Made by a program: the position numbers and the translations under genes. Source: a virus. Taken from it: a DNA stretch of 22,833 nt. Shown here piece after piece: positions 331-21,517 of this stretch (position 1 is the first letter of the stretch; the number at the start of each line of letters is the position of its first letter). The DNA lies in IMG/VR virus record IMGVR_UViG_3300013094_000293, positions 1 to 22,833 of that record. One strand, given 5' to 3'. The notes under the pieces are model-generated. The model was not told the origin of the DNA, did no database searches, and worked only from the letters and a program-made list of their open reading frames with translations.

Positions 331-358
331 GGGGAGAAGAAATTCTCCCCTTTTTTTT
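331..358 (+). terminator. Rho-independent terminator of gene 32
   Basis: A perfect 8-bp stem (GGGGAGAA paired with TTCTCCCC) closes a GAAA tetraloop at 331-350 and is followed by eight T residues at 351-358. This is a textbook intrinsic terminator for rightward transcription out of gene 32. The T run overlaps the stop codon of the converging minus-strand gene (357-359). Read leftward the same hairpin forms but is followed by CAATTG rather than a T run, so it is probably weak in that direction. Confidence 0.9.
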
Positions 359-2306
359 ACATCTTAAAAAGACCTGGGTGTATTACTGGATGATCAAAAA
401 TAGATGCTGTATAGGTTGAGATGCTTGTCTCACTATTTGTCAATTTTAATCTAGCATCAGTTGCTGCTGGTGGCGATACCATCGGTGTTTGTGATTTTAT
501 AATTCCTGATGCTTTAGATTGATCGATAGAAGATTGTAATGCATCAAGTTTATCATGTATATCATCCATATTATTATTCTTTTCAGAAGCAACGTCATCT
601 GCAGTTTGACTCTTTAACTCATTTAATCTTCTCTCAGTTATAACACCTTCTTTACCGTGTAGAACTGCAGGTGTTCCGCTACCAAAATCTTCAATGTCAC
701 TTCCTGTTGCTGTATGACTTCCTTCTCTACGATGAACGACTTTTCCTGAAAGCTCGGATTCCTTACCCTCAATTTTCGCTACTGATGTTCCTTCATTTGA
801 TTTCTCATAATGAGATCCAGTATCAACTTCTTTATCTTTATCGTCGCCGCCATCTTTTGACTTAGATGCTAACATAAGTCCAGCGCCAACAGCTAATCCG
901 ACAGGTCCTAATGCTGCAAGCGCAGCTTCTCCGCCAGCAAGAGCAGCTCCACCTTCTACAGCAGCTGCAGCGCCACCACCCTCAGCTGCCACTAAGCCTG
1001 CAGATTCAGCTTTAGATGCAGTTGATGCAGCTTTCAATGCATTTGATTCTTCTGCGGCAGTTTTAGCAATGTCAGCATTTTTAGAAACTTTATCAGCTTG
1101 ATTTGTTTTTTTAATTTGTTCTTCAAGTAAATCTGCTGCTTTTTCTTCTGACTTTCCAGATCCTTCTATATTTTTAGGATCTTTCTTACTAAACATATTT
1201 TTAATAAGATTATATCCAGAATTTTTATTCTTATTTGCTTTATCTACTTTATCTTGCCCAAACAGATCAGCGAAAATATCTTCAGCGAAAGTATTTTCTG
1301 GCTTTTTATCTTTATCTTTTTTTTCTTTTTCTTTAGAATTGATTTTTTTATTAATTTCTTTAACAATAGTTAAAATCTCACCAATCTTTCTAATATCGCT
1401 TCTAGGTATTCTGTCTGTTCTTTTTGCTTGTTGCGGTTGTGGCGTTTCAGTATTATTTTCTTTTTTAACTTCTTCAGATTCTGATTTTTTATCAAATTGC
1501 ATATATGATGCTTTAGTTAAAACTCTATTAGCATCAGATTTAGAAGCAAATCCTCCAACTTTTCCACTCTCAGTTATTCTTTTAACTTGTTTGTTTTCAG
1601 GTCCCAGCGGATCATATGCGAAGTATTTTTTTTCGCCGCCCTCTTTAATGGTGATGCTCTTTACGGACAATCTGTCATAGATTTTATCTATTTTAGCAGA
1701 AAGATCAGGATAATTGCTGCTTGTTTTGTTTACGGCGTTGCTTAGATCGTCTAACTTATCTTCTACTTTTTCAAGATTGTCATCTAAATCATCTATTTTA
1801 TTTTTTATGATTGTAGTAGAAAGTATCAAATCATCAATCTTATTTGAAGCTCTTTCTTGATCAGGGCTATCGCTTCTTGTTACTTCTTCTTTGTCTCCAT
1901 CATTAAAAATACTTGTTGATATTTTATTAGAAATGTCTTTTCCGCCAGTGAATATATTTTTAAATTTTTCCTTTATCATATTGTATCCAGACTTAGGGTT
2001 CTTTGTCATTTTATCTACTGAACCCTGTCCGAATAATTTTGCTACGACATCATCTACGAAGTCATTTTCTCTTTTTTGTTTTTTCCCTGGAGCATTTTTG
2101 GTAATATTTTTTCTAACATTACCAGAAGCTCTTTTTGTAATATTACTTTTGTTTTGTAGCTTGTAGATATCTTCTTCGCTGATTTCTTGATTGAGAGCTT
2201 CTTTAAAGTCTAAATTTTTATTCTCTTGTAGAATGAGATTCGCAAGATCATTTAATGTGATGCTCGCGCTTGATGTGGAAATTTTTGGTGCGGTTTTTCT
2301 TGCCAT
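357..2306 (-). CDS. Candidate tail tape-measure protein (gp29-equivalent), 649 aa
   Basis: No direct family match is recognised; the tape-measure call is inference. Visible features: a lysine-rich N-terminal third, a strong heptad coiled-coil stretch (about residues 154-215), a 35-residue duplication (81-115 and 338-372), a second charged helical region (about 300-335), a long Ala/Gly-rich hydrophobic segment (about 436-480) that could insert in a membrane, and a G-T-P-A-V-L-H-G-K-E-G-V-I motif (544-556) resembling ones near the ends of many tape-measure proteins. Length is close to T4 gp29 (590 aa). The start ATG overlaps the stop of the gp51-like frame (TAATG), suggesting translational coupling, as only a weak purine-rich ribosome site precedes it. 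Lying right after a frameshifting chaperone-like pair is the classic tape-measure position. Alternative: another coiled-coil structural protein. Confidence 0.55.
   Translation of the reverse strand: MARKTAPKISTSSASITLNDLANLILQENKNLDFKEALNQEISEEDIYKLQNKSNITKRASGNVRKNITKNAPGKKQKRENDFVDDVVAKLFGQGSVDKMTKNPKSGYNMIKEKFKNIFTGGKDISNKISTSIFNDGDKEEVTRSDSPDQERASNKIDDLILSTTIIKNKIDDLDDNLEKVEDKLDDLSNAVNKTSSNYPDLSAKIDKIYDRLSVKSITIKEGGEKKYFAYDPLGPENKQVKRITESGKVGGFASKSDANRVLTKASYMQFDKKSESEEVKKENNTETPQPQQAKRTDRIPRSDIRKIGEILTIVKEINKKINSKEKEKKDKDKKPENTFAEDIFADLFGQDKVDKANKNKNSGYNLIKNMFSKKDPKNIEGSGKSEEKAADLLEEQIKKTNQADKVSKNADIAKTAAEESNALKAASTASKAESAGLVAAEGGGAAAAVEGGAALAGGEAALAALGPVGLAVGAGLMLASKSKDGGDDKDKEVDTGSHYEKSNEGTSVAKIEGKESELSGKVVHRREGSHTATGSDIEDFGSGTPAVLHGKEGVITERRLNELKSQTADDVASEKNNNMDDIHDKLDALQSSIDQSKASGIIKSQTPMVSPPAATDARLKLTNSETSISTYTASIFDHPVIHPGLFKM
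1191..1295 (-). repeat. Internal protein duplication, copy 2 (candidate tape measure residues 338-372)
   Basis: This is the second copy of the 35-residue segment at 1962-2066, sharing L-F-G-Q, V-D-K and S-G-Y-N. Both copies sit between charged helical stretches and precede a lysine-rich linker. Confidence 0.85.
1962..2066 (-). repeat. Internal protein duplication, copy 1 (candidate tape measure residues 81-115)
   Basis: This stretch encodes a 35-residue segment with core motifs L-F-G-Q-x-x-V-D-K and S-G-Y-N-x-I-K. It matches copy 2 (1191-1295) at 20 of 35 residues by hand alignment, without gaps. The similarity is at protein level; the DNA copies have diverged. Confidence 0.85.
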
Positions 2307-2518
2307 TATCTTCTTCTACTTCTTGATCTTCTTTCCATGTCTTTTATCTTACGCTTCTCTTCTTCTTCTTTTATCTTAGCCGCCAACATATTAACATATA
2401 TGTCTTTTTCCCAAGGAATCATATTATCAAATAAATTAACATCAAATTTGTGGTAGTAGAGTAAAGCAAAATTTAATTTAAAATACTCCGCTAACGCACC
2501 ATCACCAAAACTTAGATA
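2306..2518 (-). CDS. 51: gp51-like segment, predicted to be made only as a -1 frameshift extension of gp26
   Basis: The frame is open from 2554 to the TAA at 2306-2308, encoding 70 residues after the predicted slip. There is no in-frame ATG, GTG or TTG before the ATG at 2422, which would give only 38 residues and drop most of the conserved part. The peptide has a helical segment A-L-L-Y-Y-H-K-F-D, then M-I-P-W-E-K-D-I-Y-V-N-M-L, then a Glu/Lys/Arg-rich tail ending in S-R-S-R-R-R. The pattern of tyrosine/histidine helix, short loop, Pro-aromatic-Glu-(Arg/Lys) helix and charged tail resembles the C-terminal domain of tail assembly chaperones in T4-like marine phages. Position between gp26 and the tape-measure candidate matches gene 51 of T4, whose product helps hub assembly. 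It is much shorter than T4 gp51 (249 aa). Its stop overlaps the next ATG (TAATG). The gp51 name rests mainly on position. Confidence 0.65.
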   Translation of the reverse strand, partial: YLSFGDGALAEYFKLNFALLYYHKFDVNLFDNMIPWEKDIYVNMLAAKIKEEEEKRKIKDMERRSRSRRR

Positions 2519-3240
2519 AAAAAATCGTTGAGACCCTCCAGCACAAAATGGTGCTTAAATTTACATTTTGGACAATCATGATCTATTTCTTTTCTTACTG
2601 TTGGAAGATTATTAAAAAATTCTTCAATTTTCTTATAACGATCAGGGGGCATCGAGTAAATAAAATTCAATAAGTCTTCCAACTTAACATCTTTTGATTT
2701 ATAAATTCCATTTTCATCAAAAACATAATCTATGTTCATAGCTGCAGCTTTAAATTCTGCGTCAGGATCATCATTAAATTTTTCACTTGACAATAAAGTC
2801 ACAGCTTCAAAGGTCGGATACTTCATTTGAACGCCAACATTATCTGTAATCATTATTTTCTTTTGTACATCGGCATTGACCACTGGAACTTCTAACAAAT
2901 TAATTGGAAGTTCTATAACCATTCCGCATTCTTCCTGACTGCTGTTTTTATTCTTACATTTAAAATATGTAATAATATTCTCACCAATAGATCTAGCTCT
3001 AAAATTTAAAAACAATAATTCAAGATCAACAAGTGGCAGCTCATCAACATTAATATTGTCAATTAAACAATTTTGAGCTATTTGTTTGACAATATTAGCT
3101 GTATCCTCAGAAGTTTTTGCTTCTGCCGCCATCAACATAAGTTTCTGTTCTTTAACCAAGAAAGGTCTAAATTTAACAGGCTTATCCTGAGAAAATAACT
3201 TCACTTCATAAGTTGGAGTTGATATATTTGGAAGATTCAT
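2512..3240 (-). CDS. 26: Baseplate hub assembly protein gp26 (T4_baseplate family), probable tail assembly chaperone
   Basis: The 242-residue product (T4 gp26 is 208) resembles the T4 baseplate protein family (PF12322 by recollection): an N-terminal strand region with V-K-F-R-P-F-L-V-K-E-Q-K, a central helical part (D-L-E-L-L-F-L-N-F-R-A-R-S) and a C-terminal C-P-K-C (223-226) followed by G-L-N-D-F-F-I. Cys95 and Cys105 with Cys223 and Cys226 could form a zinc site; that is inference. T4 gp26 takes part in central hub assembly. A good ribosome site (GAGGT) precedes the ATG, and the gp54-like gene ends 22 bases upstream. The conserved Phe-Phe near the end is encoded by the T7 slippery run, so the protein probably also exists as a fusion of about 311 residues with the gp51-like segment. 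Confidence 0.85.
   Translation of the reverse strand: MNLPNISTPTYEVKLFSQDKPVKFRPFLVKEQKLMLMAAEAKTSEDTANIVKQIAQNCLIDNINVDELPLVDLELLFLNFRARSIGENIITYFKCKNKNSSQEECGMVIELPINLLEVPVVNADVQKKIMITDNVGVQMKYPTFEAVTLLSSEKFNDDPDAEFKAAAMNIDYVFDENGIYKSKDVKLEDLLNFIYSMPPDRYKKIEEFFNNLPTVRKEIDHDCPKCKFKHHFVLEGLNDFFI
2518..2524 (-). promoter_or_regulatory. Predicted -1 ribosomal frameshift slippery site (T TTT TTT)
   Basis: Seven consecutive T residues in gp26 codon phase T-TTT-TTT satisfy the X-XXY-YYZ rule for simultaneous -1 slippage. They encode the last two Phe of gp26 (240-241), followed by ATC and the TAA at 2512-2514. Slippage by -1 enters exactly the frame that runs on for 70 residues. No convincing downstream hairpin or pseudoknot was seen by eye. 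Confidence 0.75.
2534..2539 (-). promoter_or_regulatory. Internal Shine-Dalgarno-like element (GGAGGG) upstream of the slippery site
   Basis: GGAGGG lies within the gp26 coding sequence, nine bases before the T7 run. Internal Shine-Dalgarno elements about 10 bases upstream are known to stimulate bacterial -1 frameshifting (dnaX). It is not followed at normal spacing by a start codon in the gp51-like frame, so an ordinary initiation role is less likely. Confidence 0.65.
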
Positions 3241-17626: not shown

Positions 17627-20600
17627 ATGTTAAATTTTGATGTAGCACCATATTATGATGATTTTGATGCGGAAAATGGCGCAATCAATAACAACTACAT
17701 GCGTATTCTGTTTAAGCCAGGATATGCAGTACAAGCAAGAGAATTGACTCAAAGTCAATCAATTTTGCAGAATCAGATTTCTTCTTTTGCAGATAACATC
17801 TTTCAAAACGGATCACCAGTTAGTGGCGGTCATTTGACATATGATAATACAGTTTCAGCAATTCAGTTGCAGCCAACTTATCAAAATGCTCCAGTTTCTA
17901 TTTCTGATTTCCAAGATCAACTTATAACAAATAGCCAAACTCAAATTTTACAAAAAGCAATTGTAGTTGCAACTGACGATTCATTGTCAAGCAATACTTC
18001 TGCTGGTGCTATTGTTGTAAAATATATGTCAGGGTTTCAATTTGGGTTAAACGATGTTATTGTTACAGATTCTCCTGGAGAAACACAATACACCGCTCAA
18101 ATTTTATCAGCTAATGTAAGCAATACAAATCTTGCAATATCAGATGGATCTATTGTAAGTATTAATGATGGCGTGTTTTATGTAAATGGTTTCTTTATTA
18201 AAGTTCCAGCGCAAACAATTGTTCTAGATTCTCAAAATACCGCTCCATCATATAGAGTCGGTCTAGAGATTCAAGAAAGTATAGTCAACTATACTGCAGA
18301 TTCATCTCTATTAGATCCAGCTCAAGGATCATTTAATTATCAAGCTCCAGGAGCTGATCGTTATCAATTTAATTTAGTTCTATCAAAGAGATCATTAAGT
18401 CAAATCGATGATTCCGCTTTCTTTGAATTAATGAGAATTGAAAACGGAATTATCACTAATCAAGTAAACTACTCATTGTATTCAAAAATTGGCGATACAA
18501 TGGCTAGAAACATTTATAATCAATCAGGCGACTTTACAATCACTCCTTTCGTATTAACTGTGAAAGATAATCAAACAGATAATTTAGGAAGTACATTCTT
18601 GATGTCATTGTCTCCAGGATGGGCATACATTAAAGGATACGAGTTCCAAACTCTCGGTTCTACCGTGATGACGAACAAGAAAGCCAGAACATCAAATACT
18701 TCTACTGACTATACAATAAGTCTAGAATACGGAAACTATTTAATTGTTAATAACGTGCATACTGGAACAGCAGCAAGTATGAATATTGCTGGGTATACGC
18801 AATACGATTTAAACATTCTACCGAGCGGATTAATCAATACTCAAAATGCTACTGCATATGCTAACAGCACAATTGGCACAGCAAAACTAAGAAACTTAGA
18901 GTATGATGGTTCTTCAGCGTTAAGTACAACATATTATGCATATCTTCTTGATGTAAACGTCCACGGATTAGTCGGAAATGCTTATGGTCATTTAACAGAC
19001 ACTTCCAACACTATTGCTTTACAATTACCTCCAACATTTGCTGATGTTCCTGATCTTTATATCGGTAAAACATTAAGCGTTCTAGCTGGCAATTGTTCTG
19101 GTGATGTTAGAACTGTTACTGCATATGATGAAGCTAATAATAGATTAGTTGTTTCAAGTAATTTCTCACAATTACCTGACAGCAATACTCAATTCTCATT
19201 AAACTTCACTATTGGTGACGTTAACTCATTAGTTGTTCCTCCGTCAACATTTACACAAAACGTATATTCAACTCAACCTGGATTTAATCCTGCAGTAACA
19301 TATCCTAGCATGGATATTGACGTTACTTCAAAAAATCCAGTTGCTGCTAACGGAAGTACAACATTATATCTAACAAACGATGATTGTTTAGTATTTGAAT
19401 TGCCGCAATCATATATCGTGCAAGACTCAATTAACAATGTAACATTCTATAACAGAAAATTCTTCCCTAATGTTTCTTTTGACGCAACAGGATCTAGTAC
19501 ATTTGCTGTTGGTAATAACTTATCATCAACTGAAACATTTGATTTTGGATATACCAACGCATTTGTTCCACGCAACCAAGCAAATTCTAAAGTAATAGTT
19601 GCTATTAGAAGTAACGTTGAAAGTCAATTAAACTTTGCTAATGGTTCATTATTGAGTTTTGATTATGATGGTCCAGGAGGTGTTTCATCCTTTGGTAACT
19701 CAGTTTATCAAACTGATGCATCATCAATTACAATTAAAGCTAACAGCGCAATAGCATGTAGTAATGCGTTTATTGCTGACGTTATTTTAACTGTTAAAGA
19801 AAATGCTGGAGCAATCTCAGTAAGAAGAAGTAAATATGCATTTGGTAATACGTCAAATACACAATTGAAAACAACTGATACTCCATTCAACGGAACAGTT
19901 GTACAAGGTATCCCTGACAGTTCAGTCAGAGTAGACTCATCAAATGGTTATATCTGGTTCACAAACCCAGCTATTTTAAATACTTCTCCAGGATCAGCGC
20001 AAAGTCTTTATATTCCTGACGTCACAGATTTGATTAAAATATATGATTCAGGAAATCCAGCTTATGCGCCAAATGTGCAAAATACCTTAATTGATATTAC
20101 AGACAGCTATATTCTAAATTCTGGACAAACAGATAACTATTACGATCATGCTTCATTGATTCTAAGAGCAGGATATCCAGCTCCAACTGGTCAAATTGTT
20201 GTAATGACGAGATACTATAATCATAGTAATACTTCTGGATTCTTTACAGGTAATTCATATCCTTCTGTAGACTATCAGACTGGAAAAATTCCTGTTTACG
20301 TTTCACCAGCTAAAGGTTCTCTAAACTTAAGAGACGCAATTGACTTTAGACCAACAAGAGCAAATGGTATCGTAACTGATGTTAGAACATTTACTCTACA
20401 AGGTGCAGTTACACCTCAACCTGATCTCAATATGCAGTTATCTTATGCATATTATTTACCAAGAATTGATAAGTTGACATTAACCAAAAATAAACAATTT
20501 AGAATTATTTCTGGTGCGCCGTCAACAAACCCAGTTCCTCCAAGTGATGCCAGCGATGCCATGACATTATGGCAAATTAATATTCCTGCATACACTGACG

Positions 20601-21517
20601 ATATCAGCAAAATTCAATTAAATTATGTTGATAACAGACGTTATACAATGAGCGATATCGGTGGGTTGAATAAGAGAATTACTCAACTAGAATATTATGT
20701 AACATTAAATCAGCAACAACAAAATGCTTTAAATCAAACTACAACATATGTAAACGATCCTTCGCTATCAAAAACTGCTTATGGTATCGTAGCTGATTCA
20801 TTTACAGATTTCAGTATTGCTGATAATTCTTCAACAGATACACTATGCTACATTTATAATGGAACAATGAAACCATTCCATTCAACAACACCAATTTCAT
20901 TTAATCTATTAAATGTCGTTGGTCCATATTCTGATAATGAAAAAACATATTCATTGGAATATACTGAAACGCCTGCAGTTGTACAAAATACAGCGAACTC
21001 AACAGTTGTGGTGCAGCCATATGCATTCGGTCAGTTCTTAGGTGAGTTATCATTAACTCCGCAGACTGATGTATTCTACAGTCAAGCACTTCCACCTGTT
21101 TACGTTTCACCAACAGTTCCAACACCACCTATTACATCTCCACCTCCACGTGTTCTTCCTCCTGTTAAGATTCCTTGGCCAGTCAGTTCAAATGCAGCGC
21201 CTGTTCTTTGCACAGGATCAGTAGTTGTGGGATCTAAAGTTAGAGGTGGAGGATCAATTCCAACTCTACCGTCAAGATCAGTTGCTCCATCAACTGGAAT
21301 TACAACTGTTGGAGGAAGCGAGGTGAATCTTGGTTCATCTACAAATATTTTTGCTTGTGGATTTGGAGCTTCACTAACTTCTAGATGTTGTGGAAAAAGT
21401 TTACTTGGTTGCTGGTCAAGTGGTAGCACCACACCAGTTGGAACAACAATAACATCTCAACAAGGTTGTTTAGCAAATCCACTTCCAAGTTCTTATAATG
21501 GAACAAACAAAACTTAA
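17627..21517 (+). CDS. Large virion structural protein, DUF4815-type
   Basis: The 1296-residue protein opens with the family signature: P-Y-Y-D-D-F (8-13), Y-M-R-I-L-F-K-P-G-Y-A-V-Q-A-R-E-L-T-Q (24-42) and L-Q-N-Q-I-S-S-F-A-D (47-56). Further family marks are R-D-A-I-D-F-R-P-T (902-910), R-R-Y-T-M-S-D-I-G-G-L-N-K-R-I (1004-1018) with L-E-Y-Y-V-T-L, and G-E-L-S-L-T-P-Q-T-D-V-F (1139-1150). Such proteins occur downstream of baseplate genes in many aquatic T4-like phages and are thought to be baseplate- or fibre-associated; the exact role is unknown. A Y-I-G-K-T-L beta module lies at about 459-526. From 1156 the sequence becomes Pro-rich, and the last 102 residues hold six of its ten cysteines. 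AAGGT precedes the ATG. gp9/gp10-like function is possible but unproven. Confidence 0.75.
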   Translation: MLNFDVAPYYDDFDAENGAINNNYMRILFKPGYAVQARELTQSQSILQNQISSFADNIFQNGSPVSGGHLTYDNTVSAIQLQPTYQNAPVSISDFQDQLITNSQTQILQKAIVVATDDSLSSNTSAGAIVVKYMSGFQFGLNDVIVTDSPGETQYTAQILSANVSNTNLAISDGSIVSINDGVFYVNGFFIKVPAQTIVLDSQNTAPSYRVGLEIQESIVNYTADSSLLDPAQGSFNYQAPGADRYQFNLVLSKRSLSQIDDSAFFELMRIENGIITNQVNYSLYSKIGDTMARNIYNQSGDFTITPFVLTVKDNQTDNLGSTFLMSLSPGWAYIKGYEFQTLGSTVMTNKKARTSNTSTDYTISLEYGNYLIVNNVHTGTAASMNIAGYTQYDLNILPSGLINTQNATAYANSTIGTAKLRNLEYDGSSALSTTYYAYLLDVNVHGLVGNAYGHLTDTSNTIALQLPPTFADVPDLYIGKTLSVLAGNCSGDVRTVTAYDEANNRLVVSSNFSQLPDSNTQFSLNFTIGDVNSLVVPPSTFTQNVYSTQPGFNPAVTYPSMDIDVTSKNPVAANGSTTLYLTNDDCLVFELPQSYIVQDSINNVTFYNRKFFPNVSFDATGSSTFAVGNNLSSTETFDFGYTNAFVPRNQANSKVIVAIRSNVESQLNFANGSLLSFDYDGPGGVSSFGNSVYQTDASSITIKANSAIACSNAFIADVILTVKENAGAISVRRSKYAFGNTSNTQLKTTDTPFNGTVVQGIPDSSVRVDSSNGYIWFTNPAILNTSPGSAQSLYIPDVTDLIKIYDSGNPAYAPNVQNTLIDITDSYILNSGQTDNYYDHASLILRAGYPAPTGQIVVMTRYYNHSNTSGFFTGNSYPSVDYQTGKIPVYVSPAKGSLNLRDAIDFRPTRANGIVTDVRTFTLQGAVTPQPDLNMQLSYAYYLPRIDKLTLTKNKQFRIISGAPSTNPVPPSDASDAMTLWQINIPAYTDDISKIQLNYVDNRRYTMSDIGGLNKRITQLEYYVTLNQQQQNALNQTTTYVNDPSLSKTAYGIVADSFTDFSIADNSSTDTLCYIYNGTMKPFHSTTPISFNLLNVVGPYSDNEKTYSLEYTETPAVVQNTANSTVVVQPYAFGQFLGELSLTPQTDVFYSQALPPVYVSPTVPTPPITSPPPRVLPPVKIPWPVSSNAAPVLCTGSVVVGSKVRGGGSIPTLPSRSVAPSTGITTVGGSEVNLGSSTNIFACGFGASLTSRCCGKSLLGCWSSGSTTPVGTTITSQQGCLANPLPSSYNGTNKT

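Follow-up and report, generated by a model that had tools for sequence, protein, structure and literature searches.

Gene 26 of a divergent T4-like phage as a predicted frameshifted tail-assembly chaperone gene with a conserved Shine-Dalgarno-like element ahead of its slippery run

In the 22,833 nucleotides of viral DNA analysed here (IMG/VR record IMGVR_UViG_3300013094_000293, positions 1 to 22,833; hereafter the window), gene 26 closes on a run of seven T's, and beyond its stop codon a second reading frame continues that has no early start of its own. The question raised by this locus is whether gene 26 yields a single protein, or whether ribosomes slipping on the T run extend a part of its product into the second frame. 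The first-pass annotation had predicted a programmed -1 frameshift that fuses gp26 to a gp51-like domain, and had regarded genes 26 and 51 as the T4-like counterpart of the lambda G/GT pair. We examined the anatomy of the junction, its conservation among relatives and the relationship to the two T4 genes.

Anatomy of the gene 26 locus

Gene 26 lies on the minus strand (2512-3240) and encodes a predicted short-form tail-assembly chaperone of 242 aa, which matches PF12322 (E=6e-54) and phrog_150 (E=6e-57). It scores 183 bits where the cut-off is 24.5 and is thus a member of PF12322, a T4 baseplate family, and its identity to annotated phages of approximately 37% or lower indicates a divergent lineage. 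The tail tube gene precedes gene 26 in the window. The next gene (357-2306, minus strand), whose start overlaps the stop of the -1 frame (TAATG), encodes a protein of 649 aa; neither the family searches nor tblastn against annotated phages gave a match for it, and by its position it is probably the tape-measure protein. The AlphaFold2 model of gp26 has a pLDDT of 92. A Foldseek search of viral models with it returned chiefly relatives of the baseplate-hub protein gp26 and unnamed proteins, and the matches in the PDB included the HK97 tail chaperone 2ob9 at a non-significant level (probability 0.35, E=1.3). Elsewhere in the window (17627-21517, plus strand), downstream of baseplate wedge genes, a protein of 1296 aa matches phrog_358 (E=2e-201), a family of unknown function.

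The end of the gene reads GAT TTT TTT ATC TAA, as the first-pass annotation had described, and its T's (2518-2524, minus strand) form the heptamer T_TTT_TTT, of the X_XXY_YYZ type, in the phase of gp26 and within the overlap of both frames. The zero-frame stop TAA (2512-2514, minus strand) follows one codon past the heptamer. In the -1 frame no stop occurs between 2554 and the TAA at 2308-2306, and after the slip this frame encodes an extension of 70 residues (YLSFGDGALAEYF...) plus the stop (2306-2518, minus strand), which matches phrog_634 (E=1.6e-19) and shares homology with the C-terminal end of T4 gp51. Translation through the slip joins 241 residues to these 70 at the junction NDFF-YLSF, and thus gives exactly the fusion of about 311 aa that had been estimated. 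The reported scarcity of starts also holds, as the first ATG, GTG or TTG in the -1 frame past the slip is residue 33 of the extension and falls only past half of the conserved domain; from the gp26 stop to the next ATG (2306) there are precisely the 205 bases that had been described as an apparent gap.

Conservation of the slippery run and of the element ahead of it

The junction was compared among 89 distinct loci, the window included, which remained after dereplication of 10 relatives (annotated or from contigs) and a further 80 loci retrieved by gp26 alignment. The search patterns covered the N-terminal half of gp26, and the loci were thus chosen independently of the junction. The heptamer T_TTT_TT[C/T/A], in gp26 phase and 0-9 nt ahead of the stop, is present in 89 of these 89 loci, the 80 fetched loci being the best 80 of 598 matches and the sample therefore skewed to window-like genes. 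It takes the form TTTTTTC in 55 loci, TTTTTTT in 33 and TTTTTTA in one, and it recurs in four separately fetched lineages, i.e. Acidovorax ACP17, Stenotrophomonas Mendera, Aeromonas AsFcp_4 and the Vibrio Schizotequatrovirus. As a control, the other ORFs of these loci were screened from 100 aa upwards, and a near-stop heptamer occurred in 13/626; eleven of these were further copies of gp26, which leaves 2/615, and none of the 615 combined the heptamer with an open -1 frame of at least 50 codons. Codon choice at the site is similarly constrained: the first Phe codon is TTT in all 89 loci, against 746 of 1050 elsewhere in the same genes, and the Ser, Asn or Asp codon preceding it ends in T in 86/86 cases, against 2272/3052 elsewhere. 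Slippage needs both of these preferences and the protein needs neither. The ORF controls and codon tests rule out a chance occurrence, and conservation over 89 loci together with the many TTTTTTC relatives rules out a sequencing error in the homopolymer. The alignment of homologues proposed in the first-pass annotation bears out the T run and the -1 frame, which is open throughout; the expected absence of ATG starts is partial, since 22 of 83 relatives have an early ATG, at or before the Tyr-Phe position. At the gp26 end of two loci (L063 and L073) the run is extended (TTTTTTTTA), and slippage would be possible there at two overlapping heptamers.

Nine nucleotides ahead of the slippery run lies GGAGGG (2534-2539, minus strand), a Shine-Dalgarno-like sequence and putative frameshift stimulator, singled out by its anti-Shine-Dalgarno pairing, a GAG bias and its position profile. 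A purine-rich [A/G]GG core is found 8-9 nt ahead of the heptamer in 75 of the 89 loci, and in 65 of them at 9 nt. Mean pairing with the 3' end of 16S rRNA has a sharp optimum at this site. The element overlaps a conserved Leu-Glu-Gly, and codon choice was tested for that reason. Where the residue is Glu, the codon is GAG in 48/69 loci (70%), against 386/2001 (19%) elsewhere in the same genes (p=1e-18, a value overstated by the treatment of related loci as independent). The pairing also exceeds that of synonymous recodings, with a mean rank of 0.21 (p=6e-13, overstated for the same reason) and a rank of 0.03 in the window. The upstream element is under selection at the nucleotide level.

It is unlikely that the slip is real and GGAGGG a mere by-product of the Leu-Glu-Gly peptide, with no stimulating action. 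The LEGL peptide is itself conserved, its Gly is kept in T4 gp26 and the core is missing at 8-9 nt in 14 of the 89 loci, all of which would fit such a by-product; against it stand the GAG bias, the excess over synonymous recodings and the loci in which Lys, Gln, Val, Ser or Arg replaces Glu, most of which still form [A/G]GG there. Stimulators of -1 frameshifting have been reported 9-14 nt upstream of slip sites, for example in dnaX and in many IS elements (PMC5009743). Downstream of the heptamer, a possible weak RNA hairpin (2440-2517, minus strand) has a z of -1.9 in the window, where values range from -0.2 to -1.9 with the stretch folded; across loci the mean z over 70 nt is a modest -1.25. 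A downstream hairpin or pseudoknot as the main stimulator was set aside, as the folding signal, which covers structures other than pseudoknots, is weak. The chances seem to us evenly balanced that, throughout the T4 superfamily, frameshifting in gene 26 and its homologues is driven by a conserved internal Shine-Dalgarno sequence approximately 9 nt upstream, in the manner of dnaX, and not mainly by downstream RNA structure, and that this is unreported for phage tail chaperones. A literature search that left aside the 2022 Virology paper discussed below found no mention of a Shine-Dalgarno-like element upstream of these tail-chaperone slip sites.

The -1 frame extension and its translation

The extension is open in every locus, and in the 83 loci where the contig end does not cut it, its length is 53-80 sense codons. 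Its median pN/pS is 0.16 among the 40 most similar pairs, and dN/dS lies between 0.04 and 0.39 where computable, which indicates purifying selection. Its positions 9, 16, 17 and 23 are 91-100% conserved, and all of them precede the first start of the window at residue 33; an independent start of the extension is therefore rejected for the window. In the cyanophage S-BM3 (L015:1517-1701) the gp51-like domain has no annotated gene, yet the -1 frame is open and conserved, and other records annotate gp51 merely as a truncated gene.

Alternatively, the extension could be a separate small protein with its own start, translated by re-initiation or coupling after the gp26 stop, in which case GGAGGG would be its ribosome-binding site. 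Many phage records annotate it so, those of cyanophages as 'gp51', and the early ATG in 22/83 relatives would suit this arrangement, as would two Vibrio phages that belong to the Ackermannviridae or lie close to them and have an ATG across the gp26 stop. In 53 of the 83 relatives, however, no ATG occurs before residue 16 of the extension, few loci have a -1-frame start at ribosome-binding distance from GGAGGG, translation from residue 33 in the window would omit the conserved residues named above, and the phased T run in all 89 loci would be left unexplained. We therefore consider a separate protein very improbable. The Vibrio phages 207E48.1 (Ackermannviridae) and K474 (no family in the record) and the Salmonella Kuttervirus GOT are a different case, as the heptamer was not found at their gp26 ends (L104:2217-2405, L105:2172-2354 and L017:2301-2465, all Ackermannviridae or near). 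In K474 and 207E48.1 the stop of gp26 is overlapped by an ATG that belongs to the C-terminal domain (TAATG), and an independent start of that domain looks right for these two; in the Kuttervirus the -1 domain is without an early ATG and without a clear heptamer. The missing slippery run thus goes with an own start in the two Vibrio phages, whereas the slippery group is often without a usable early start.

Six T's make a short run for transcriptional slippage. A slip of RNA polymerase instead of the ribosome on the T run, which would give mRNAs with an altered number of U's, is scarcely credible: T7 runs can promote it, and this may be why E. coli genes avoid UUUUUUU (PMC4066793), but 55 of the 89 relatives have just six T's and then C, a heptamer that does permit a tandem slip, the phase suits tRNA re-pairing in every case and an anti-Shine-Dalgarno element would be irrelevant to the polymerase.

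T4 genes 26 and 51, related systems and the proposed mechanism

Genes 26 and 51 of T4 are transcribed from opposite strands, and their products, of 208 and 249 aa, are paralogues; both match PF12322, and they align by BLASTP with 20% identity (E=2e-6). In the alignment with the window, T4 gp26 ends right after the shared Phe-Phe, at the slip position, and the T run is broken in its gene (TTC TTT), while T4 gp51 runs on into a C-terminal domain that aligns with the -1 extension of the window and matches phrog_634. T4 therefore has a separate gene for each of the two forms, gp26 corresponding to the short form of the window phage and gp51 to the long, where the window phage has one gene and a predicted slip. 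As gp51 is a complete gp26 paralogue plus the extension, the 'gp51' labels on the short -1 ORF of cyanophages denote fragments of the long form. The proposed equivalence of genes 26 and 51 to G/GT is supported by the phased run, the start-less extension, the comparison with T4 and a gene order in which the tape-measure gene is presumed, and it needs correcting in one respect, namely that gp51 is not the extension alone. Within the Straboviridae, the Schizotequatrovirus and an Aeromonas Angelvirus retain a TTTTTTC site (L102:2190-2390, L103:2290-2490, L106:3790-3989) and T4 uses separate genes; the two-gene arrangement thus seems to have arisen inside this family.

The abstract of the work by Vladimirov, Gautam and Davidson reportedly describes frameshifting in some T4-like phages and short and long genes in others, and is said to name genes 26 and 51. 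This work concerns the tail-assembly chaperones of T4-like phages (Virology 2022; 566:9-15), and as cited by later authors it found that frameshifting is replaced in some T4-like phages by a short gene together with a longer, fused one (PMC10885494) and that their TAC-N genes carry poly-T frameshift signals (PMC12846349); an older review had regarded T4 as an exception to G-T frameshifting (PMC5009743). By these citations, the gene family, the short and long forms and the poly-T frameshifting in some groups are those seen here, and the frameshifted chaperone of T4-like phages is largely published.

In lambda G/GT, as is predicted for the window, ribosomes that slip by -1 shortly before the first gene ends append a C-terminal domain, and the locus follows the tail tube gene and precedes the (here presumed) tape-measure gene (PMC5009743). 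The lambda heptamer is a different one, however, and the N-terminal protein of the window is larger; the likeness drawn here is one of layout. The tail-chaperone frameshift of the Vandenendeviridae and Andersonviridae (phage Adele, PMC12846349) resembles the one predicted here in its conserved -1 shift at a T-rich site and in a downstream ORF that was wrongly annotated as a gene of its own; it differs in its GTTTTT motif and in the phage family. Escherichia coli dnaX has an upstream Shine-Dalgarno sequence ahead of its slippery heptamer, but that heptamer is A_AAA_AAG instead of T_TTT_TTN, a clear hairpin lies downstream and the protein is unrelated.

We propose that gene 26 very probably encodes a tail-assembly chaperone in two lengths through -1 slippage. 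The sequences show the anatomy, conservation, coding selection and homology described above; that ribosomes slip, how often they do so, what the element contributes and that the products act as chaperones is inferred from them. The majority of ribosomes would halt at the TAA and release the short form of 242 aa. A minority would slip back by one base on U_UUU_UUU, probably aided by pairing of 16S rRNA with GGAGGG nine bases upstream, and would continue in the -1 frame to give the form of 311 aa with its extra C-terminal domain. If the two forms work as lambda gpG and gpGT do, they may act as chaperones on the tape-measure protein, probably the product of the next gene, which would be covered by numerous copies of the short form and a small number of the long, the additional domain serving to bring in subunits of the tail tube or hub. 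From its paralogous genes T4 would obtain both products.

The sequence evidence supports in substance the earlier reading of a gp26 and gp26-51 pair like lambda G/GT, and what the present analysis adds is a divergent member and evidence for a putative conserved upstream stimulator. The annotation of many T4-like phages would be corrected accordingly: the cyanophage 'gp51', often annotated as separate or truncated, or missing altogether, would become the C-terminal part of a frameshifted chaperone, and in T4 a pair of genes, 26 for the short form and 51 for the long, would stand in for the frameshift. The selected Shine-Dalgarno-like element offers a concrete and cheap handle on how slippage may be tuned in tail assembly.
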